Origin: a virus
DNA: 25,282 bases
IMG/VR virus record: IMGVR_UViG_3300035698_025752
Coordinates: 1-25,282 of that record
Strand: one strand, 5' to 3'
Made by a program: the position numbers and the translations under genes. Shown here in pieces: positions 2,587-24,029 of this stretch (position 1 is the stretch's first letter; each line of letters starts with the position of its first letter). A model generated the notes under the pieces. It made no database searches and was not told where the DNA came from. It saw only the letters and a list, made by a program, of their open reading frames with translations.

Positions 2587-3576
2587 TTATAGTTTAAGCG
2601 GACATTCGTTTCCATTGTATAATAATTGTTTTCTAAAGTTGATAAATATATCAGATTCATTCCAAATTTTATAAATGTCATTTTTTATTGGTATTCCAAA
2701 TACTTCTTCATCTGCAAAACTACACGGTACCATTTTCATAGTTGGACTTATATAAGAAGACATCCTGGATGCCTCACATGTTTGAACCGTTGATTTTTGT
2801 AATGCTGTTAATTTTGTATATTTAGTAATATGGTTGGCAAGACAGCTATCTATGCCAATCTTAAATTTAGCTTTACCATTAAATACTTTTTTTGCCATTA
2901 TTTTAAGTTGATCATCAGTTGGATTCAGTTCTTTTAAATCTTTTCCGGCACCCGATTGTTTAAATAACAGAAATATTACAGCGTTCAGTTTTTCAATGTT
3001 AATAGCTCCATTCCAAACATCAATTCCATCCAACATATCTATACAATCTTTAAAATTTACAGATGAAAAGATATAATGAATATTTGTTTTTATTCCTGAA
3101 TCCATTAATCTATTTAATGCGTCATATGTGTAAGGTTTTCTGTAATCGCTGACGGCAACGGCCCCGCACATTTTTGATATCTCAATCTGTTTATCGGTTA
3201 TATCAATACCGCTTGTTGTATAATTCGGTACAACATTTTTTTGTCTACAGTATTTAAGCATTTCTTCAAAATCAGGATGTTGATTTGGATCTCCTCGTCC
3301 TCCCAATGCAACTTGACTTGTATGATAAAAGACTTCATCTATAATTTGTTTAAAATCACTGAGTTTCATATTTGGACGATTCACATGTCCTTGGTAACAA
3401 AACTTACATTTATGTTTACAAGTCCCCATAACCCCAATATCTAGAAGAGATGGTAAAATTAAACAGAATGGATCTTTTCTTCCATTAACTCCATTCAGTA
3501 TTTCAAGACCTGTTTTTGTATCAAAAAAAAGTACATAATGCCCATTTGTAAAATACCTGATTCTTTTATTCTTCAT
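2587..3576 (-). CDS. Radical SAM enzyme with SPASM/twitch-like C-terminal cluster domain
   Basis: The 329-residue protein carries CKHKCKFC (C53, C57, C60), the CxxxCxxC motif that holds the [4Fe-4S] cluster used to cleave S-adenosylmethionine. GGRGDP (92-97) matches the GGE-type SAM-contacting strand. The C-terminal third has C245, C267, C285 and C325, with the phrase YISPTMKMVPCSF, typical of SPASM/twitch domains that bind an auxiliary cluster in peptide- and protein-modifying enzymes. LLDIGVMGTCKHKCKFCYQG resembles uncharacterised bacterial radical SAM proteins rather than the anaerobic ribonucleotide reductase activase or QueE. The ATG has AAGGAG 5 bases upstream. It is the first gene of the minus-strand cassette. 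The substrate is unknown; the neighbouring TNSSS protein is the obvious candidate. Confidence 0.9.
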   Translation of the reverse strand: MKNKRIRYFTNGHYVLFFDTKTGLEILNGVNGRKDPFCLILPSLLDIGVMGTCKHKCKFCYQGHVNRPNMKLSDFKQIIDEVFYHTSQVALGGRGDPNQHPDFEEMLKYCRQKNVVPNYTTSGIDITDKQIEISKMCGAVAVSDYRKPYTYDALNRLMDSGIKTNIHYIFSSVNFKDCIDMLDGIDVWNGAINIEKLNAVIFLLFKQSGAGKDLKELNPTDDQLKIMAKKVFNGKAKFKIGIDSCLANHITKYTKLTALQKSTVQTCEASRMSSYISPTMKMVPCSFADEEVFGIPIKNDIYKIWNESDIFINFRKQLLYNGNECPLKL

Positions 3577-4302: not shown

Positions 4303-5037
4303 ATGACTATGAAATATAGTTTTGCTGAACTTGGTCAAAACATATTAACAAGAAAATTCGGTGGTACAACTGTAGGTGTTGCTGATCCTTATGTAACTGG
4401 TTATCACTTTATATGGTTTGATAAGATCCCGCCGGGATTGGCTGGAGCAATTGTAAAGAATGGAATTAGTGGTATATCTTCATCTGGAGAAATTCAAACT
4501 ATATTGGCAGCATCATGTTTATCTGTAACACCACCAGGTGGTACTTTAAATAAGATTGAATATACTGGTTTGGGTGGAGTTAAGTGGGCAGTACCGGGAA
4601 ACATTGATTATGGTAATACAGTTTCTGTAAAGTTTCTTGAGTTTAACAAAACACCTCTTCTTGATATTATGCATAACTGGGTTAAGTTGATTCGAGATTA
4701 TAGAACTGGTATCACAGATTTAGAAGACGGTGCTCAAGGTGAAGGATATAGCAAGAAAACATATGCTGGTTTGATGTATTACTGGACTACAGCGCCTGAT
4801 GCTAAAACAGTAGAATACTATGCATGTTATGATGGTATATTCCCAGGCAAAGATCCACAAGATTTATATACCAGTGATGTTGAAACAGTTGGTCGTCTCG
4901 ATGTTGAAATTGAATTTAATGTCGACTATGCTTGGCATGAGAAGTGGGTGTTTGATAAGTGTCAAGCATTTGCAAATGATTTTGCTAAGATTAAAGACAC
5001 AGTTAAAAATTATGGTTCTAGACAATCTGGAACATAA
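4303..5037 (+). CDS. Tail tube protein (gp19-like)
   Basis: This 244-residue protein is the probable inner tube of the contractile tail, which the DNA passes through. The central signature is a long VSVKFLEFNKTPLLDIMHNW helix region with WVKLIRDYRTG (about 107-136), flanked by beta-rich segments (GGVKWAVPGNIDYG; VGRLDVEIEFNVDYAW), as in gp19-type tube proteins. It is larger than T4 gp19 (about 163 residues), with inserted loops around 55-90 and 138-150. The start ATG has AGGAGG 8 bases upstream and codons are evenly used, consistent with high expression. The tube gene normally sits directly after the sheath gene; here a ~3.9-kb block separates them. The call rests on recalled family pattern and position. 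Confidence 0.65.
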   Translation: MTMKYSFAELGQNILTRKFGGTTVGVADPYVTGYHFIWFDKIPPGLAGAIVKNGISGISSSGEIQTILAASCLSVTPPGGTLNKIEYTGLGGVKWAVPGNIDYGNTVSVKFLEFNKTPLLDIMHNWVKLIRDYRTGITDLEDGAQGEGYSKKTYAGLMYYWTTAPDAKTVEYYACYDGIFPGKDPQDLYTSDVETVGRLDVEIEFNVDYAWHEKWVFDKCQAFANDFAKIKDTVKNYGSRQSGT

Positions 5038-5046
5038 AAGGTAGAT

Positions 5047-5664
5047 ATGTTACAAAAACAAAATGAAGCATTTTGGGTTCCTGCGATGCTGATTTTCACT
5101 GCTTTGTCGGTTGCTAAAAAAATATATGATAATGAGATGAGTGCTTCCGGAAAAGCATGTCAGGGGAAACAGGGATATGCTTTGGATGTATGTGTTCGTA
5201 ATTTTAAAACTAAAGCCCTCAATGCTAAAAGTACTTTGTTAAAAAAAGAAATGGCAAAGTGTAGTAATACCGAAAAGCCAAAAAAATGTAGAAAAACGTT
5301 TATGAAGCATATAAATAAAATACAGAATCAAATGATAAAAATTAATTCCGCCAGGAGGAAGATGGAAATGGATATTAATAGGTTAAAGTTAGGACTTATG
5401 TATATTTTTAATGAAAGTAAAAAAATACCGAATAAGTCAAAACTCCATTTATTTAGATTTATAGAACAAGCTGATGAATATCAACTAAAAGTTCTTGCTT
5501 TAGATGGAGAGATTGTAAGTAATAGTTTTGATAAAACCACAAAGAAAATTATTGATGCTAGATGTGTAAGTGAAAATATTCCAGCTCTTGCTGTTGGTGC
5601 TTCTACTGGTGCGTTGACTTGGGTAACATCTAGACACCAATTAAGAAAAAACAAACAAAAATAG
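5047..5664 (+). CDS. Cys-rich membrane-hairpin protein, single module (unknown)
   Basis: I do not recognise this 205-residue, lysine-rich protein. Residues 9-24 (FWVPAMLIFTALSVAK) form a hydrophobic segment near the N-terminus, and 178-194 (IPALAVGASTGALTWVT) form a second. Between them lies a four-cysteine helical module: C38-x10-C49-x22-C72-x8-C81. The same spacing from the second cysteine onward (x22, then x8) occurs twice in the protein at 7142-8305, so the two genes are related. The following stretch KSKLHLFRFIEQADEYQLKV also resembles repeated segments there (HFRDHIDLYHFVLKEDEYKM). The ATG at 5047 has AAGG about 6 bases upstream. It lies between tail tube and tail chaperone genes, so a tail or membrane-penetration role is possible but unproven. 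Confidence 0.8.
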   Translation: MLQKQNEAFWVPAMLIFTALSVAKKIYDNEMSASGKACQGKQGYALDVCVRNFKTKALNAKSTLLKKEMAKCSNTEKPKKCRKTFMKHINKIQNQMIKINSARRKMEMDINRLKLGLMYIFNESKKIPNKSKLHLFRFIEQADEYQLKVLALDGEIVSNSFDKTTKKIIDARCVSENIPALAVGASTGALTWVTSRHQLRKNKQK

Positions 5665-5729
5665 ATGCGATACATAAAGGATTATCGAAATAATTTTAAA
5701 TAGATCCGAAAGGAAAGGAGATAGAACAA
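5665..5729 (+). other. Short intergenic leader before the gp26-like gene
   Basis: The only clear signal in these 65 AT-rich bases is the AAAGGAG ribosome site at about 5714-5720, followed by AGAACAA just before the ATG at 5730. No terminator hairpin is visible, so transcription probably runs on from the previous gene. Confidence 0.5.
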
Positions 5730-6521
5730 ATGGCATTCACAGGATTTCAAACACAGTACCCGGAGTATGAAGTTATCACTCCACAAACAAAAAAGTCTTT
5801 TACTTTAAGATCTTTAACTGTTCAAGAAGAAGAAAATCTTAAAGGAAGTCTTATAACACCAGCAAAAATTGCTGACCATTTAAATACTTGTATATTTAGA
5901 TCGCTTGTTAAAAAACCAGAAGAAATTGATGATTTAGATACATTTCTTCATAGTATTACTTTAAAAGATCGAGACGCTTTACTATATGGTTTATATCATA
6001 TAACTTATGAAGAGATTCGAAATTATGCAGTCAAATGTACTAAATGTTCTAATGAATATGAAGTAACGGTTCAGGCATCAAGTACATTTAATTTTAATAG
6101 TTATCCGGATGATGATGTTTTATCTAAAAAAGTTAAAATCAAATTACCAATATCTAAAGGAGTTGTTGTTGTTATTAAGCAACCAACTCTAATTGATGAA
6201 ATGATGTCTATTAAAAATTTAAGCAATAGACCCGGAACTTCATTAGAGATTATTACTGAAACCTTAATTATTGATAGTTTTGAACACGATATTGAGGACT
6301 CGAAAGAACCAAAAGTTTATTCAGATCGAATTGATATTATGGATGCTTATTTATCTTTACCAGCTAAAGATAAACGAAATATATTTAAAGCATACAAAGA
6401 ACATTTTGGCAAATATGGTATCGAGTTGAAGATGAGAAGTTTTTGTTCATCTTGTGGTAATGAAGATAATTTTGATATAGACTTGGTGGACAGCTTTTTT
6501 CGTTCATTGTACGAAGCATAG
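5730..6521 (+). CDS. gp26-like tail chaperone/baseplate protein with zinc ribbon (zero-frame product)
   Basis: The zero-frame product is 263 residues. It resembles the T4 gp26 baseplate family (the position equivalent to tail-assembly chaperones in other phages): an N-terminal ITPQTKKSFTLRSLTVQEEENL beta/helix start, a middle helical LKDRDALLYGLYHITYEEIRN, and a four-cysteine zinc ribbon made of C103/C106 and C239/C242 that brackets a beta domain. The C-terminus DIDLVDSFFRSLYEA corresponds to the family's FF-containing helix, but the protein stops there while family members usually carry on. The missing part is encoded in the +1 frame (next entry). The ATG has AAAGGAG 9 bases upstream. The next gene is gp25-like, the usual baseplate context. 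Confidence 0.65.
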   Translation: MAFTGFQTQYPEYEVITPQTKKSFTLRSLTVQEEENLKGSLITPAKIADHLNTCIFRSLVKKPEEIDDLDTFLHSITLKDRDALLYGLYHITYEEIRNYAVKCTKCSNEYEVTVQASSTFNFNSYPDDDVLSKKVKIKLPISKGVVVVIKQPTLIDEMMSIKNLSNRPGTSLEIITETLIIDSFEHDIEDSKEPKVYSDRIDIMDAYLSLPAKDKRNIFKAYKEHFGKYGIELKMRSFCSSCGNEDNFDIDLVDSFFRSLYEA

Positions 6522-6699
6522 TGAATTAGCGGATTTTAAAGACGAACTTAATGAAACCATATATGCGTGTATGGAAATGAGTAAACAATCATATATTGAA
6601 GTTTGTATGATGCCTTATAAAAGATTTCAGGATTATATGAAGTGGAAGGCTCGATTAGAAGAAGAAAAACAAAAAAGGATTGAAGAGGAAATAAAGTAA
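6481..6699 (+). CDS. Frameshifted C-terminal extension of the gp26-like chaperone
   Basis: In the +1 frame relative to the upstream gene, bases 6481-6699 are open and encode, from 6520, SELADFKDELNETIYACMEM, then SKQSYIEVCMMPYKRFQDYM, then KWKARLEEEKQKRIEEEIK. It is a typical chaperone tail with the MPYxRFxDYxxWK..LEEE pattern. There is no ATG, GTG or TTG in this frame before the ATG at 6571, and that one has no ribosome site, so entry by frameshift is more likely than a separate start. The candidate site is CTTTTTTCGT (6494-6503): the phenylalanine tRNA on TTT could move +1 onto TTC, giving a fusion of about 322 residues. A -2 slip there, or +1 at GCA-TAG (6516-6521), are alternatives. The stop TAA directly abuts the ATG of the gp25-like gene. 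Confidence 0.72.
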   Translation, partial: TWWTAFFVHCTKHSELADFKDELNETIYACMEMSKQSYIEVCMMPYKRFQDYMKWKARLEEEKQKRIEEEIK

Positions 6700-7140
6700 A
6701 TGGCAGATCTTCTTAGAAGATTTAATCAAACAGTTGCTGGTTCTGACTCTAAACTTGCAGATTATCAAGCAGTAATCTCAAGTGTTGGAGATTTTAGAAG
6801 AATCAAAAATCTTGAAGTTATTCTTTCATCTTGGAATAATATATTAATTACTCCCAGAAGAAGTTATCAATTTGATCCGGAATATGGAAGTGATATTTAT
6901 AAACTTATTTTTGAGCCTGCTGATAATGACACATTAGAAAGAATAAAAACAGAAGTAGTTGAGACTTTATTAAGATATGATAATCGAGCAATAATTGAAA
7001 ACGTTGAAGTAAACCTTCTTTCAAATCGTAAAGGTTTTAATATTTCTATTGATGTTAAATATGAAGGTAAAACTGGTCAGTTAGAAGTAGTTATTGATGA
7101 GGATGCTTATTTCAAGGTTTTTGAAACTACGGAGACATAA
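6700..7140 (+). CDS. Baseplate wedge protein, gp25-like
   Basis: The 146-residue product fits the gp25/W family of contractile tails and related injection machines. The signature ILITPRRSYQFDPEYGSDIYKLIFEP (49-73) matches the family phrase in which a glycine-arginine or double-arginine turn precedes PxYGSxL...FEP. It is followed by the amphipathic TLERIKTEVVETLLRYDNRAI and the beta strand IENVEVNLL. In T4, gp25 joins the wedge to the first sheath ring. The ATG lies one base after the stop of the chaperone extension, with GAGG in the coding end of that reading frame. Length and order (chaperone, gp25, ..., gp6-like wedge) match contractile-tail gene clusters. Confidence 0.88.
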   Translation: MADLLRRFNQTVAGSDSKLADYQAVISSVGDFRRIKNLEVILSSWNNILITPRRSYQFDPEYGSDIYKLIFEPADNDTLERIKTEVVETLLRYDNRAIIENVEVNLLSNRKGFNISIDVKYEGKTGQLEVVIDEDAYFKVFETTET

Positions 7141-7141
7141 A

Positions 7142-8305
7142 ATGATTATTGATCAAGATAGAAAAATATTAAAAGAAGTAGGAAAAGAATATTTGCTTGA
7201 TATTGCTCTAGATAGTAAACTTTTAAAAGATAAACTTACGTTTAAAGAACATGTTGAGTTATGTGATATGATTAGTACGCTGACCTATAAAGAAGTTATA
7301 TCTCTTGCTATTACTGAAAGCATTAGAGATTTTGAAGGTAAATTTGGAAAATTCTTAAAATATAGTATAGCTGCTATAGCTGGAATGAAGTGGATAGGTT
7401 TATTAAAGGGACCGCCAGTTGCTATGTTCCTTTTATATCTTTTTAGAAAAGCAACTGATACATGTAATTTAGCATGCATTAAGAAATTTCCTCTTTCAAC
7501 TGAGAAAAAGATTTGTAAAGCTGAGTGTAAAGTTGAAGGAGCAAAACGTATTGTAAGAGATCTTCGTTCTGAAATTAACAAGTGTAATCAATTTGAGAAT
7601 GCTGCCAAATGTGAAAAGGCTCTTCAAAAAGAATATATAAAATGGTCAAGGCGTTTGCAATCGCTTATGGTTAAACTAAATCAAGCTAAACTTGGTACAG
7701 AATTAAAGGCTAGAAGAGCAGCAGCAAAAGCGGCAGCTCAAAGAGCAAAACAACTTGCAGCAAGTTATCAAATACCTAAAACTCGTCTTATTAAAATGAT
7801 AGCTGAGAATTCTGAAATAAGGAAGAAAATTCATTTCAGAGATCATATAGATCTTTATCATTTTGTTTTAAAAGAAGATGAATATAAAATGACTCCTCCT
7901 AAAGTTGATCCAGAAAAAGAGAAGATGGCACGACAGGCTCTATATTTAGGACTTTGGATTATTCCGATACCATTCTTTAATGACTTAATAAATTATTTGG
8001 TTAAAAAATATAATTTTTCATGTATGACTAAATGTATAAGACAACAAAAGTTTCCAAAGGAAGTTTGTTATCATCAATGCTCATATTTGGCAGCAAAATA
8101 TGCAGTTGGTATTTTAAATAAAAATTTAAAGACATGTAATAAAGCGAAAGATCCAATTAAATGTAAAAATAAAACATATAATCTATTAAACGATTGGAAG
8201 CAAAGAGAAGTTGAAGCAAAAATAAAATTTGAAACCTCTATGAGAGGTGAAATCAAAAAAGCTAAAACCAAAAATTTAAAGTCTATGAAAAAACGGGACT
8301 TATAA
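7142..8305 (+). CDS. Membrane protein with two twin-CX3C/CX8C cysteine modules (unknown)
   Basis: I do not recognise this 387-residue protein. I chose the ATG at 7142 because GGAG lies 8 bases upstream; a start at 7094 would overlap gp25 with no ribosome site. It is an internal duplication. Each half has a K(x)HFxxHIxL-type helical segment (28-48; 227-250), a hydrophobic stretch (71-101; 266-288) and a cysteine module. Module 1 is C108-x3-C112-x12-C125-x3-C129-x18-C148-x8-C157. Module 2 is C294-x3-C298-x10-C309-x3-C313-x18-C332-x8-C341. The halves are joined by an alanine/arginine-rich coiled coil (170-208). Twin CX3C spacing recalls small disulphide-bonded helical hairpins such as mitochondrial small Tim proteins, but no homology is claimed. 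Its position among baseplate genes suggests a virion or injection-related role. Confidence 0.82.
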   Translation: MIIDQDRKILKEVGKEYLLDIALDSKLLKDKLTFKEHVELCDMISTLTYKEVISLAITESIRDFEGKFGKFLKYSIAAIAGMKWIGLLKGPPVAMFLLYLFRKATDTCNLACIKKFPLSTEKKICKAECKVEGAKRIVRDLRSEINKCNQFENAAKCEKALQKEYIKWSRRLQSLMVKLNQAKLGTELKARRAAAKAAAQRAKQLAASYQIPKTRLIKMIAENSEIRKKIHFRDHIDLYHFVLKEDEYKMTPPKVDPEKEKMARQALYLGLWIIPIPFFNDLINYLVKKYNFSCMTKCIRQQKFPKEVCYHQCSYLAAKYAVGILNKNLKTCNKAKDPIKCKNKTYNLLNDWKQREVEAKIKFETSMRGEIKKAKTKNLKSMKKRDL

Positions 8306-8991: not shown

Positions 8992-11472
8992 ATGTCTAAG
9001 TTATTATCAAGTCAAATATGGTTATCTAGAGATAGCATTAGAGAACAAATAAGTGCACAAGTTAAATCATATTTAGAATTAGAAAATGTAGATCTAACGA
9101 AATCGTCATTCCTTTCTTTCATGATTGATACAATTTCAACCCTTACAGGTAACTTGTTATTTTATCAAATCTCAACTTATAGGGAATTCTTCCTTACTAA
9201 AGCGCAACTTCCAGAATCAATCTTAAATCTTTCTGCGTTTCTCGGTTATAATACAAGAGAAGCTACAGCTTCTAGAGTTAATGTTCTTATAACCATTCCT
9301 TTCGGTTTTGATGATCCATCAACTACATTTTCAATACCTGAAGGGTTTGTTTTTACAGCGGATGGAGATGTTGAGTTTAGAACTTATTATTCAACCTCAA
9401 TAACTGTAACAGGAAATGCAAGTGCAGTTGCAACGGTTACAGAAGATAATAAAAGGTTTATCCTACCTGTGAATGAAACAACAGAAGATTTCAGTTTTGT
9501 TTTGCCATTACTTCAAGTAAAAGAAGTGGTTCAAGAGTACCAAATTGATAGTGATATTCAAGAATATCAATTTATAACTTTGGATGTATTAGTTGATGGT
9601 GAAGTTGCATCTCTTGAAGTTCAAATAAAACCTCCTGGAAGTGCTGGCTATACAACATGGACAGAATTTGCAAGTTTATTTCTGATGAGTGGGACAGATA
9701 AAGGATACGTTTCAAGGCGAACAGATACAGGTCGTAGATTAACTTTTGGTAATGATTTGAGTGGGGTTCAACCAGGCATTAATTCGTCAGTTTTGGTTAC
9801 AGTCGAAGTAACCAATGGTGAAGATGGAAATGTTATTGCAGGATCAATTAGAAGCGGTCAACGTATTTATGTTCAAACTTTAGCTGGTGTTAATCAAGTT
9901 GTGTCTTATGATGTTATTAATACTTCCCCCGCTTTTGGCGGTGAAAATGAAGAATCTATAGAAGAAGTTCGAAGCAATTCAATTGCATCTATTACATCTT
10001 TGAGCAAATTAGTTACTGAAAATGATTATAAAAATATTAATGTTATTGTTCCAGATAGTCCAATTGCTCAAAATGCTTTGCCTGTATTAAAAAGATCAGA
10101 TCTTCAAGTAAATGAAATTGAATTATTCAACAGTATTTTATTTGGAAGCGGCACAACCGAAATTGATAACTTGGTTCCAACCAGAAATGCAGTATTTGAA
10201 TTATCTTCTAGTCAGACAACAATTGATAGAGATACTTTAATTCAAATTGGTGATAGTTGGTATTATACATTGTTTAATATTATCGTTGATACTCACAATA
10301 CAGTTGGTATTTATGAGTATATTGTTTTGACTTTAGAAGTTATCCCTGCTCTTGAAACAAGTTATGTTTCTACATATGATATTTATTCTGATCTTTTTGA
10401 AATTGAAAGAGTTGGAACTCAAGGAATATTTAAATTACATTATAAGTCCACAGAAGTAGATTCTGATTTAACTACTTGCGATGTGGAGATTGAGTCAAGT
10501 GGAGTTGTATATCCAATGGTTAATGACTCAACAGGTGGATATTTTATCTATACATTTGATCCATATACAAATATACCACTTGGGGAACAGACTTTTAATT
10601 TTACAATTTCAGAACCTGGTGGAGATTCAATTGCTACATATTCTAACAAAGCTACATTTAGGGCTGACCTAAGTACATATATGAGATCGAATGTTCAGGA
10701 TGATGGTACGGCGGTAATAGTTTTTGATGTTCCTGTAATTGAGAAAGAATATTATGATAGTATTAACAAAAAAGATTTTGAATTAGAAGTTTTACAAACA
10801 CTAATTACTTCAATGGACTTAACTGATAGTAGAATGCTAACTGATTTTACAAATATTAAATTTACAAATACTTATGGAATTCTATCAAATATGTTACTTA
10901 ATCAATCTACGATATCTCCAGTTCTAGATGTTGTAGAAGATATTCCAATAAGTTGTAATGTTAATGATAGATTTATATATAGTCCGTGTACTTCCAATGA
11001 TCCGAATCAGGATGATATTATCAAGTGTACAGATTCTACAAATTTAACATTTATATATCAAGAAGCTGTTTCTGATACAATTGTATATGTTACAAATAAA
11101 GGAGAAAATTATATCTATTCTGAACGAGGGTGGATTCCTTTACCACTTTATACAGTCCCATTGGAGATTGAAGTGGAAGTATTTAGATCTGAAACATTTA
11201 GCGGGACTCTTGCGTCATTTACAGATACTATTCGACAAACTATTTTTGATGCGTTTGAAGGTAGGTTTGGAACTAATGCGACTATATATAGATCTGAAAT
11301 TATTAATGTAGTTCAAGGAATTGATGGTGTGGGACATTGTCGTTTAAGAAAACCCGAAACTAGTATATTCTTTAATTTTAAACTAAAAAAATTAACGGAA
11401 GATCAATTACTTAGATATGGACCGGAGTATATATTCTTCAGAGAAGAAGATATTACGGTTAAGGTGGCATAA
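8992..11472 (+). CDS. Baseplate wedge protein, gp6/J-like
   Basis: The 826-residue product has the layout of the baseplate J/gp6 family, which dimerises to form the wedge ring of contractile baseplates. The N-terminus combines IREQISAQVKSYLELENVDL with SSFLSFMIDTISTLTGNLLF and a Y-x-R-E-x-F helix, as in gp6-type proteins. A beta-rich region follows with SIPEGFVFTADGDVEFRTYY, typical of the family's G-x-x-F-x-x-x-x-x-x-x-F-x-T strand. Then come RRLTFGNDLSGVQPG (about 247-262) and the hallmark EEVRSNSIASITSLSKLVTE...DY (about 320-343). The C-terminal third is a long beta-rich arm with a final IINVVQGIDGVGHCRLRKP segment. AGGAG lies 8 bases before the ATG. This is the largest gene of the plus-strand tail arm. 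Confidence 0.85.
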   Translation: MSKLLSSQIWLSRDSIREQISAQVKSYLELENVDLTKSSFLSFMIDTISTLTGNLLFYQISTYREFFLTKAQLPESILNLSAFLGYNTREATASRVNVLITIPFGFDDPSTTFSIPEGFVFTADGDVEFRTYYSTSITVTGNASAVATVTEDNKRFILPVNETTEDFSFVLPLLQVKEVVQEYQIDSDIQEYQFITLDVLVDGEVASLEVQIKPPGSAGYTTWTEFASLFLMSGTDKGYVSRRTDTGRRLTFGNDLSGVQPGINSSVLVTVEVTNGEDGNVIAGSIRSGQRIYVQTLAGVNQVVSYDVINTSPAFGGENEESIEEVRSNSIASITSLSKLVTENDYKNINVIVPDSPIAQNALPVLKRSDLQVNEIELFNSILFGSGTTEIDNLVPTRNAVFELSSSQTTIDRDTLIQIGDSWYYTLFNIIVDTHNTVGIYEYIVLTLEVIPALETSYVSTYDIYSDLFEIERVGTQGIFKLHYKSTEVDSDLTTCDVEIESSGVVYPMVNDSTGGYFIYTFDPYTNIPLGEQTFNFTISEPGGDSIATYSNKATFRADLSTYMRSNVQDDGTAVIVFDVPVIEKEYYDSINKKDFELEVLQTLITSMDLTDSRMLTDFTNIKFTNTYGILSNMLLNQSTISPVLDVVEDIPISCNVNDRFIYSPCTSNDPNQDDIIKCTDSTNLTFIYQEAVSDTIVYVTNKGENYIYSERGWIPLPLYTVPLEIEVEVFRSETFSGTLASFTDTIRQTIFDAFEGRFGTNATIYRSEIINVVQGIDGVGHCRLRKPETSIFFNFKLKKLTEDQLLRYGPEYIFFREEDITVKVA

Positions 11473-22762: not shown

Positions 22763-23331
22763 GCGAAGAATCTCATATAAATATCTCGACCATCAAATTT
22801 GAACCTTCGATCTATTTCTTTTTCTAAAACTTCAAATCGTTTTTCTAATTCAAAGAAATACTTAGCTCTTTCCACTGTCCAGATTGATGTATGTGGGTCA
22901 GGTGGTTGGTTAAGTAATTCTGTAGTGAGAATTATATTATTTGCATGAAAATTATTATCTATTTTTTCATTTAATATCATTTCTGCTAGGATTGTATAAT
23001 TGGGTACTATAATATCAATTACCGAACCTTTATTTGTTATTGTTGATAAAAGGTATATAAAATAACATACTTTATCCATCGGTACATGTTCAAGAAATCT
23101 ATAAATACAAATTTTATTAAAAGATATTTTAGTTCTTTCCATGAATTCGTAAATATCTGTTTTACAATAATAAGTTTTATCTATTGTTTTAGTCCAGTCT
23201 GCCCATTCTTTTTCAATAATAACAGGATGAGAATTATGATAATACATTATATCAGAATTAATTAAAAAATAAGGTTTTGGCAGAGTCAAAGGTAATTCTT
23301 TTCCAGCTGCAATATTTAAAATTGTGTTCAT
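22750..23331 (-). CDS. Methyltransferase-like (class I fold) protein, degenerate
   Basis: The 193-residue protein has the plan of a small Rossmann-fold methyltransferase: ILNIAAGKELPL (4-15) at the motif I position, an INSDIMYY strand ending in an acidic residue (motif II-like), and the well-recognised IYRFLEHVPMDKVCYFIYLL followed by GSVIDIIVPNY, matching the LEHV...L...G.....VP segment of Methyltransf_11/23-type proteins. The glycine-rich SAM loop is poor (AAGK rather than GxGxG), so activity is uncertain. The ATG (23331) overlaps the stop of the HNH gene as ATGA, with AAGGAG just before it in the HNH coding end. Its own end carries the ribosome site of the 63-residue gene. The substrate is unknown. 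Confidence 0.55.
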   Translation of the reverse strand: MNTILNIAAGKELPLTLPKPYFLINSDIMYYHNSHPVIIEKEWADWTKTIDKTYYCKTDIYEFMERTKISFNKICIYRFLEHVPMDKVCYFIYLLSTITNKGSVIDIIVPNYTILAEMILNEKIDNNFHANNIILTTELLNQPPDPHTSIWTVERAKYFFELEKRFEVLEKEIDRRFKFDGRDIYMRFFARRI

Positions 23332-24029
23332 ATATTCTCCTTTTCAATAGTTTGACATTTCCATTTATACCATCGTTTGTTAGAAACAAATGATTTATGA
23401 TTAATATTATTTTCGAAACAAAATTTAGAAAGATCATTCGTGATAATAATTTTCCCTTCTGGATCAATAATTTCCCATATTTTTGATGAGGAATTATCTT
23501 TTCCAGTTAGTTTTCCTATTTTTGATTTGCTTATTTTTGATTTAGTAATATTAGATTTTTTCTTTCCAAAATTTGGATTGTCTTGCCCTCGTTTTCCAAA
23601 CATATGATTTTTTTCGCCAAGTTGTTTATTCCCAATTTTACGTTTGGTTTCTTCAGATAAGATTGCTCCACGTCTTGTTCCTGGTTTTCCATACCTCGGA
23701 TTGTTCTCTCTAGAATTAACTCCAGAAATTGACATATCTTTCATATTATCTACATGGGTTCCAATATATAAATGTTCTGGATTTATACACTTCTTGTTAT
23801 CTTTTTTATGATCATCACTACATTTATGTAAGACCATTAATCCATCTGGTATATTTCCATTAAATAAATAGTAACTAGCTCTATGAGCACTATAAAATTT
23901 TTTACCATCTATTATTCTTCTATATTCTCCATATTCTTGTGATGGAGTATCTTCATAAATCCAACAACCATTTTGATTAATTTTAATTTTACTTAACAAT
24001 TCCTTTTTAAATTTTTGGTTGTCTGTCAT
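23328..24029 (-). CDS. HNH homing endonuclease with NUMOD-type DNA-binding repeats
   Basis: The 233-residue protein has the HNH_3-type core: GCW (21-23), AHRASYYLFNG (49-58), VLHKC (H68, C70) and CINPEHLYIGTHVDNMKDM (81-99). After it come NUMOD3-like elements (LSEETKRKIG, 124-133; NHMFGK, 141-146; NPNFGKK, 151-157) and a C-terminal helix-turn-helix-like module (WEIIDPEGKIIITNDLSKFC). Such proteins cut a specific site and spread their own gene by repair. No intron boundary is seen, so it is free-standing. The ATG follows GAGGT, which is in the coding end of the polymerase-like gene. Being coupled on both sides suggests it was inserted without breaking the operon. Confidence 0.9.
   Translation of the reverse strand: MTDNQKFKKELLSKIKINQNGCWIYEDTPSQEYGEYRRIIDGKKFYSAHRASYYLFNGNIPDGLMVLHKCSDDHKKDNKKCINPEHLYIGTHVDNMKDMSISGVNSRENNPRYGKPGTRRGAILSEETKRKIGNKQLGEKNHMFGKRGQDNPNFGKKKSNITKSKISKSKIGKLTGKDNSSSKIWEIIDPEGKIIITNDLSKFCFENNINHKSFVSNKRWYKWKCQTIEKENI

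Follow-up and report, generated by a model that had tools for sequence, protein, structure and literature searches.

A conserved paired-cysteine module adjoining hydrophobic stretches in basic proteins of uncultivated T4-like phages

Two proteins with a common cysteine module

The window analysed here is the whole of IMG/VR virus record IMGVR_UViG_3300035698_025752, a stretch of 25,282 nucleotides. Two of its genes encode the proteins P0001 and P0002, of 205 and 387 amino acids (aa), which together carry three copies of a conserved cysteine module, each adjoining a hydrophobic stretch (Table 1). P0001 possesses the four-cysteine (4-Cys) form, whose core cysteines are designated C1 to C4, and P0002 has two copies of a six-cysteine (6-Cys) form in which an extra pair completes a twin CX3C motif. 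The best explanation of the data is that an uncultivated group of T4-like phages has a lineage-specific, multi-copy family of late proteins, small, basic and mostly helical in structure, to which both proteins belong.

A first-pass annotation, made from the window sequence alone, had proposed the cysteine spacings of the three modules, and these were exact when re-checked on P0001 and P0002. The spacing x22 then x8 was common to all three. Among shuffled sequences of the same composition, C-x22-C-x8-C turned up one or more times in 0.1% for P0001 and two or more times in 0.005% for P0002. Outside the modules each protein had one lone cysteine, C173 in P0001 and C41 in P0002, the latter unconserved among 24 homologues.

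The two halves of P0002 aligned with each other (E=3e-8, 28% identity), and P0002 is therefore a tandem duplication of one unit. In order, the unit is composed of a helix with FKEHVEL or FRDHIDL, a hydrophobic stretch that turns at GPP or PIP, the 6-Cys module and a long helix. One relative (L016, 191 aa) had a single unit, and two others (L026 and L027) possessed the two units as separate genes. The first-pass annotation had also noticed the repeated flanking helix; the repeat is real, but the motif given for it, HFxxHIxL, fits only the second copy. Its designation of the products as membrane proteins was borderline. Hydrophobic stretches were indeed present, but the best 19-residue hydropathy reached 1.47 and 1.41 in the two window proteins, whereas the usual rule for a membrane helix is 1.6, a value attained by 45 of 79 relatives. 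Lys and Arg residues flanked the hydrophobic helix on its module side.

With the gp6-like gene as an anchor, 162 relatives were confirmed in IMG/VR and the best 80 were fetched. The genes between the tail tube and gp6 were read in these, giving 86 module segments, and a 4-Cys profile detected more copies elsewhere in the larger contigs, with a maximum of six in one contig. All four core cysteines were present in about 105 of 112 aligned modules from about 80 uncultivated phage contigs. The 4-Cys form occurred in proteins of about 90-425 aa, and in 27 aligned 4-Cys modules the four cysteines were the only invariant residues. Among the 24 homologues of P0002 the cysteines of module 1 were invariant and those of module 2 at least 90% conserved, in an alignment whose average column was 54% identical. 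Spacing was thus maintained among the homologues, and the number of cysteines shifted only in pairs.

In the databases and literature searched the module family appears to be undescribed. P0001, P0002 and their relatives gave no match above chance in Pfam, PHROGs or NCBIfam, apart from a weak tape-measure match of one long relative (PHROG 305, E=7e-4). A PDB profile search gave no match to the module family, and tblastn against 50,697 phage records found no credible relative of either protein. Profiles of the module and of P0002, run on eight T4-like isolates and huge-phage genomes with related terminase or gp6, produced two sub-threshold hits that were judged from their reading frames to be chance, and a genome-contig scan with long members returned 151 pattern matches and no relative. 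An open-access literature search for twin CX3C motifs in phages found no phage protein of this type.

Most 4-Cys members started with a further conserved region of about 60 residues, here called the N-domain, with a consensus near LSKxAKLQLLxFIxxEASExQLKxLLxDGxI. It also occurred by itself, or accompanied by one cysteine pair or by two, and in P0001 it lay C-terminal of the module (profile E=2.4e-16). Fusions of the N-domain to enzymes, which would back a role as cargo tag, were absent from the fetched loci. When compared with L007:3786-4760 and L014:750-1507, P0001 resembled a fusion, its module corresponding to the C-terminal half of one neighbouring gene and its N-domain to the next gene. 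In the relative L002 the module part of the P0001 counterpart was gone and only the second part, of 104 aa, was left.

Table 1. Coordinates of P0001, P0002, their sequence elements and the adjacent tail and baseplate genes in the window
Feature	Position	Strand	Remarks
Tail-tube-like/virion structural protein	4303..5037	+	PHROG 21400 E=7e-13; PHROG 45 tail tube E=2e-5
P0001, 205 aa	5047..5664	+	hydrophobic N-terminus, 4-Cys module, then N-domain (residues 108-168)
Hydrophobic helix of P0001, AFWVPAMLIFTALSVAKK, residues 8-25	5068..5121	+	hydropathy
4-Cys module of P0001, C38-x10-C49-x22-C72-x8-C81	5158..5289	+	module profile E=1e-31
T4_baseplate family protein (PF12322)	5730..6521	+	E=4e-10
gp25-like baseplate wedge/sheath initiator	6700..7140	+	PF04965 E=7e-11
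P0002, 387 aa	7142 (ATG)..8305 (stop)	+	tandem duplication: helical domain, hydrophobic hairpin, 6-Cys module, long helix
FKEHVEL, flanking helix copy 1, residues 34-40 of P0002	7241..7261	+	
AITES, invariant Glu59 of P0002, aliphatic residue two before, just upstream of hydrophobic stretch	7307..7321	+	24/24 homologues
First hydrophobic stretch of P0002, GPP turn, residues 76-103	7367..7450	+	
6-Cys module 1 of P0002, C108-x3-C112-x12-C125-x3-C129-x18-C148-x8-C157	7463..7612	+	
FRDHIDL, flanking helix copy 2, residues 232-238 of P0002	7835..7855	+	
Second hydrophobic stretch of P0002, PIP turn, residues 265-288	7934..8005	+	
6-Cys module 2 of P0002, C294-x3-C298-x10-C309-x3-C313-x18-C332-x8-C341	8021..8164	+	
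gp6-like baseplate wedge subunit	8992..11472	+	PHROG 219 E=1e-26

Predicted structure and pairing of the cysteines

The AlphaFold2 model of P0002, built on the alignment of its homologues, was all helix (predicted local distance difference test, pLDDT, 74; predicted template modelling score, pTM, 0.67). In module 1 the predicted helices spanned residues 93-115, 120-150 and 154-209, which placed C108 and C112 near the end of helix 1 and C157 near the start of helix 3; helix 2 had C125 and C129 close to its start and C148 close to its end. When the 4-Cys module was modelled alone, from 27 sequences with the L063 homologue as the first row, helices were predicted at 11-36, 43-73 and 77-98 with the cysteines at positions 37, 48, 71 and 80 (pLDDT 84, pTM 0.70). 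The models suggest three antiparallel helices with the cysteines at helix ends. Sulphur proximity was inferred from the modelled helix boundaries, by which the partners of each pair are predicted to lie at adjacent helix ends: C37-C48 and C71-C80 would span the two turns, while C48 and C71 sit on one helix 23 residues, or 34.5 Å, apart. Because C2 and C3 are separated in this way, the four cysteines within one molecule could not make one metal site.

Neither BFVD nor PDB yielded a fold match at E<=0.001. In VIA-align, designed three-helix bundles, ferritin-like bundles and BAG domains scored Z 8-9; between helical bundles such values may reflect a common arrangement only.

Cysteines were gained and lost in pairs, giving totals of 0, 2, 4 or 6. 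In nearly all of the 112 modules the two outer cysteines of the twin CX3C were jointly present or jointly absent. Two divergent copies had exchanged the second core cysteine for an alternative position, so that the total stayed even, and a single copy lacked C3 alone. The 4-Cys profiles, however, were built from 4-Cys members, which biases that part of the survey. As a check, we considered proteins found by the N-domain alone and missed by the module profiles. The C-terminal parts of 17 such representatives contained 0, 2 or 4 cysteines in 16 cases and 3 in one, where an extra cysteine adjoined the N-domain. Among those with four, some had a twin CX3C but lacked the C3-C4 pair (L013, L017, L040, L046 and L048). 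Since the counts nearly always stay even and pairs co-occur, each cysteine pair can be regarded as a unit open to loss or gain.

That cysteine pairs staple a helical bundle at its turns is well supported. The staples are likely to be disulphides rather than other two-cysteine sites, because four cysteines could not meet in one site and because the pairs come and go together. To this extent the interpretation given by the first-pass annotation is supported: this is a conserved and duplicated module of the twin-CX3C or helix-hairpin type, adjoining a hydrophobic stretch, with cysteines that are placed and co-vary like disulphide pairs. In the common unit a hydrophobic helix would be followed by the helical bundle, the C1-C2 pair stapling the first turn and C3-C4 the second. 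In the 6-Cys form the extra pair would turn the first turn into a twin-CX3C hairpin.

Gene neighbourhood, charge and a possible processing site

P0001 and P0002 are surrounded by genes for the tail and baseplate of a T4-like phage (Table 1). The terminase of the window shared about 30% identity with its counterparts in Flavobacterium phages of the genus Immutovirus. The first-pass annotation had placed the two products in the tail region; that they are specifically tail or baseplate proteins is not supported by the relatives. In the contig L123 three module genes (206, 186 and 139 aa) flanked the portal gene (PF07230), an acidic protein gene and the prohead protease gene (PF03420), with the major capsid gene downstream, and in L125 portal and protease had a single module gene between them, with gp23 (PF07068) downstream. 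The portal-protease-gp23 region is where T4 encodes its prohead-core proteins. Other module genes lay in tail and lysis regions: L121 possessed several around genes for a gp5-like protein (PF04717), PAAR (PF05488), Amidase_2 (PF01510) and a small two-helix membrane protein, and L126 had one after a DUF5675 gene and a membrane protein gene. The head cluster of L125 also contained, at 9278-10069 (-), a protein whose end matched PrsW-type intramembrane proteases (PF13367 E=2.6e-5) in place of a module; its start resembled the cysteine-module protein at the same position in L123, and it gave no N-domain match.

Genes for gp6-like and module proteins also occurred in contigs binned into Heimdallarchaeota and Thermoplasmatales metagenome-assembled genomes (L088, JAGXNV010000078.1; L089, DAOVGR010000059.1). 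The peptidoglycan amidase gene (PF01510) of one relative makes mis-binning and a bacterial host more likely than an archaeal host, which was set aside.

The module proteins were almost uniformly basic. The net charge was +23 for P0001 and +39 for P0002, and 81 of the 82 module proteins listed were net positive (+3 to +48), the majority of them strongly, the exception (L064) having a charge of 0. Downstream of the N-domain lay a variable linker, which in short members ended in [VIL]-x-E-[VI], the Glu being kept in 12 of 13 despite gap-rich surroundings. In these short members the sole conserved [ILVFM]-x-E stood at the end of the indel-rich linker, right before the hydrophobic helix, and four twin-CX3C members had V-x-E-A-G-G-R at the linker end. 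L/I/V/F-x-E was observed in 44 of 55 linkers against 23 expected. T4 gp21 cuts after L/I-x-E (PMC9026906), and from its sequence the AITES motif of P0002, with Glu59, is a possible site of the prohead-protease type.

Several other features of the locus were noticed. Near the end of the PF12322 gene there was a slippery-like site, GCTTTTTTC (window 6493-6699), beyond which a +1 (or -2) frame stayed open and ended in ...RFQDYMKWKARLEEEKQKRIEEEIK right before gp25. Such a site with an overlapping frame was present in every relative examined (half of the 58 loci with both genes), and it is likely to be a programmed frameshift like those of tail assembly chaperones. Genes for an NAD synthase (PF02540 E=6e-36) and a radical-SAM protein (PF04055 E=8e-9), at 332-1177 and 2587-3576 (-) of the window, adjoined the tail genes and were both kept in L002. 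Homing-endonuclease-like genes of the HNH_3/NUMOD3 type were found in the window at 23328-24029 (-), at L002:4281-5045, and in L128, L129 and L152. A second homing-endonuclease-like type, starting with CDYGCGxEAKYQFKNGKWCC, had several copies in a 223-kb relative and was inserted before the tail-tube gene of L002.

Proposed virion cargo and its alternatives

We tentatively prefer, at somewhat less than an even chance, the explanation that P0001, P0002 and their relatives are virion cargo that folds oxidatively and meets a membrane on delivery, resembling the internal proteins of T4 as cargo. The proteins would be made late and packed into the virus particle like the T4 internal proteins, which are likewise basic (PMC9026906), and the prohead protease may trim some members after L/I/V/F-x-E; in line with this, a gp21-type protease is encoded by the 223-kb relative. 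Delivery would occur at infection, when the hydrophobic helix and the stapled bundle would associate with the inner membrane of the host and the cysteines become oxidised there; that the hydrophobic helix or hairpin actually enters this membrane is speculative. Virion packaging itself is plausible, because the genes are late and stand among head and tail structural genes, and because their products are basic, paralogous and perhaps protease-trimmed. Disulphides need an oxidising place, for which the simplest candidates are the infected cell's periplasm and the particle once released. Among eight relatives none encoded a DsbA and one of the eight possessed a thioredoxin. The Lys and Arg residues on the module side would leave the module periplasmic after insertion from outside, and together with the cysteines they weakly favour delivery from outside.

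The T4 internal proteins IPI, IPII and IPIII (and Alt) share with the family a basic character, poor conservation across phages, several copies per genome, an origin in phages with a gp21-type prohead protease, and L/I-x-E upstream of what, in the family, would be the mature part. The family differs from them in its N-domain, hydrophobic helix and cysteine module, and no sequence similarity was found. The ejection or inner-head proteins of phiKZ-like giant phages (e.g. the pfam12699 paralogues) are also paralogous and multi-copy, and in phiKZ the prohead protease processes them after Glu. The descriptions consulted mention no cysteine module for them, and the module family matched no such family in Pfam or PHROGs.

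A number of observations count against the cargo explanation. In the 223-kb relative the head cluster with the gp21-type protease contained no module gene. The N-domain, used as a control, was also enriched for L/I/V/F-x-E (42 of 57 against 27.6 expected), and motif density in conserved columns was not clearly above that of tail-protein controls. T4 internal proteins have propeptides of 10-19 residues, shorter than the shared N-domain with its roughly 60. Moreover, by the positive-inside rule Lys and Arg on the module side would predict a cytoplasmic module if the protein were inserted from within.

The alternative that survives best, although on the unlikely side, is that the proteins are tail or baseplate components which insert into the host membrane at injection and form or line a pore, their disulphides being made in the periplasm. 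The window and most relatives place the genes directly between those for the tail tube, PF12322, gp25 and gp53/gp6-like proteins, and hydrophobic stretches with GPP or PIP turns would suit hairpins re-entering from the periplasmic side, with the module and the Lys/Arg residues on that side. A pore role had also been suggested by the first-pass annotation. It is weakened by the copies in head and lysis regions and by the fold searches, in which no convincing pore-former stood out above generic helical bundles within the chance range. An extension of the cargo explanation, which we consider unlikely, combines packaging with membrane action: cargo packed in the reduced state would be locked into its active form by disulphides only in the oxidising periplasm, where bundles and hairpins would assemble on or in the inner membrane as a redox-triggered device. 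It would include the several paralogues per genome, spread over head, tail and lysis clusters.

Slightly less likely again is a role as late non-virion membrane proteins, oxidised after insertion, in envelope remodelling, lysis or the exclusion of other phages. The copies of L121, next to a peptidoglycan amidase and a two-helix membrane protein, and of L126, next to DUF5675 and a membrane protein, would fit such a role, but no signal peptide was apparent, most copies lie in structural clusters, and the Lys/Arg distribution predicts a cytoplasmic module. Scaffold- or chaperone-like assembly factors, in which cysteines would merely stiffen helical bundles and oxidation would be unnecessary, are improbable. 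Long Lys/Ala-rich linkers, helical bundles, adjacent assembly genes and the weak tape-measure match of one long member all agree with them; near-absolute cysteine conservation amid high divergence, with pairwise gain and loss, is however hard to explain without a covalent role. A metal-binding, zinc-finger-like module, suggested by the four conserved cysteines and by a twin CX3C that could in principle hold one ion, is highly improbable, since in the 4-Cys form the modelled helix geometry, with two cysteines at each end of a continuous helix, would keep the four cysteines of one molecule from meeting in a zinc site, the spacing is unlike that of known zinc ribbons and no Pfam zinc family matched.

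Twin CX3C motifs are known from two other groups of proteins. Alpha-hairpinins, antimicrobial peptides of plants, have the motif C-X3-C-X4-20-C-X3-C (PMC11591084), into which the C-X3-C-X10/12-C-X3-C of the 6-Cys module falls, and form a helix-loop-helix held by two disulphides. They are free, short, secreted peptides, whereas P0002 has 387 aa, a third helix and an extra C-x8-C pair, and no homology was found. In small Tim and CHCH proteins of the mitochondrial intermembrane space two antiparallel helices bear twin CX3C or CX9C motifs (PMC7925007), much as in the P0002 model, where twin CX3C is predicted at the ends of adjoining helices. The disulphides of these eukaryotic proteins join the helices and are formed by MIA40 once a membrane has been crossed; no Pfam or PDB profile match linked them to the module, and the fold hits were generic. 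The likeness to both groups is most likely convergence.

Since the cytoplasm in which phages make their late proteins is reducing, it is unexpected that cysteine pairs should be the most conserved residues of a large and fast-diversifying family. The module profile provides an annotation marker for a family invisible to Pfam, PHROGs and NCBIfam, and the cysteine pairs offer a direct handle on when and where these proteins fold. If they are indeed virion cargo, they would show how this uncultivated T4-like group acts on the host envelope.

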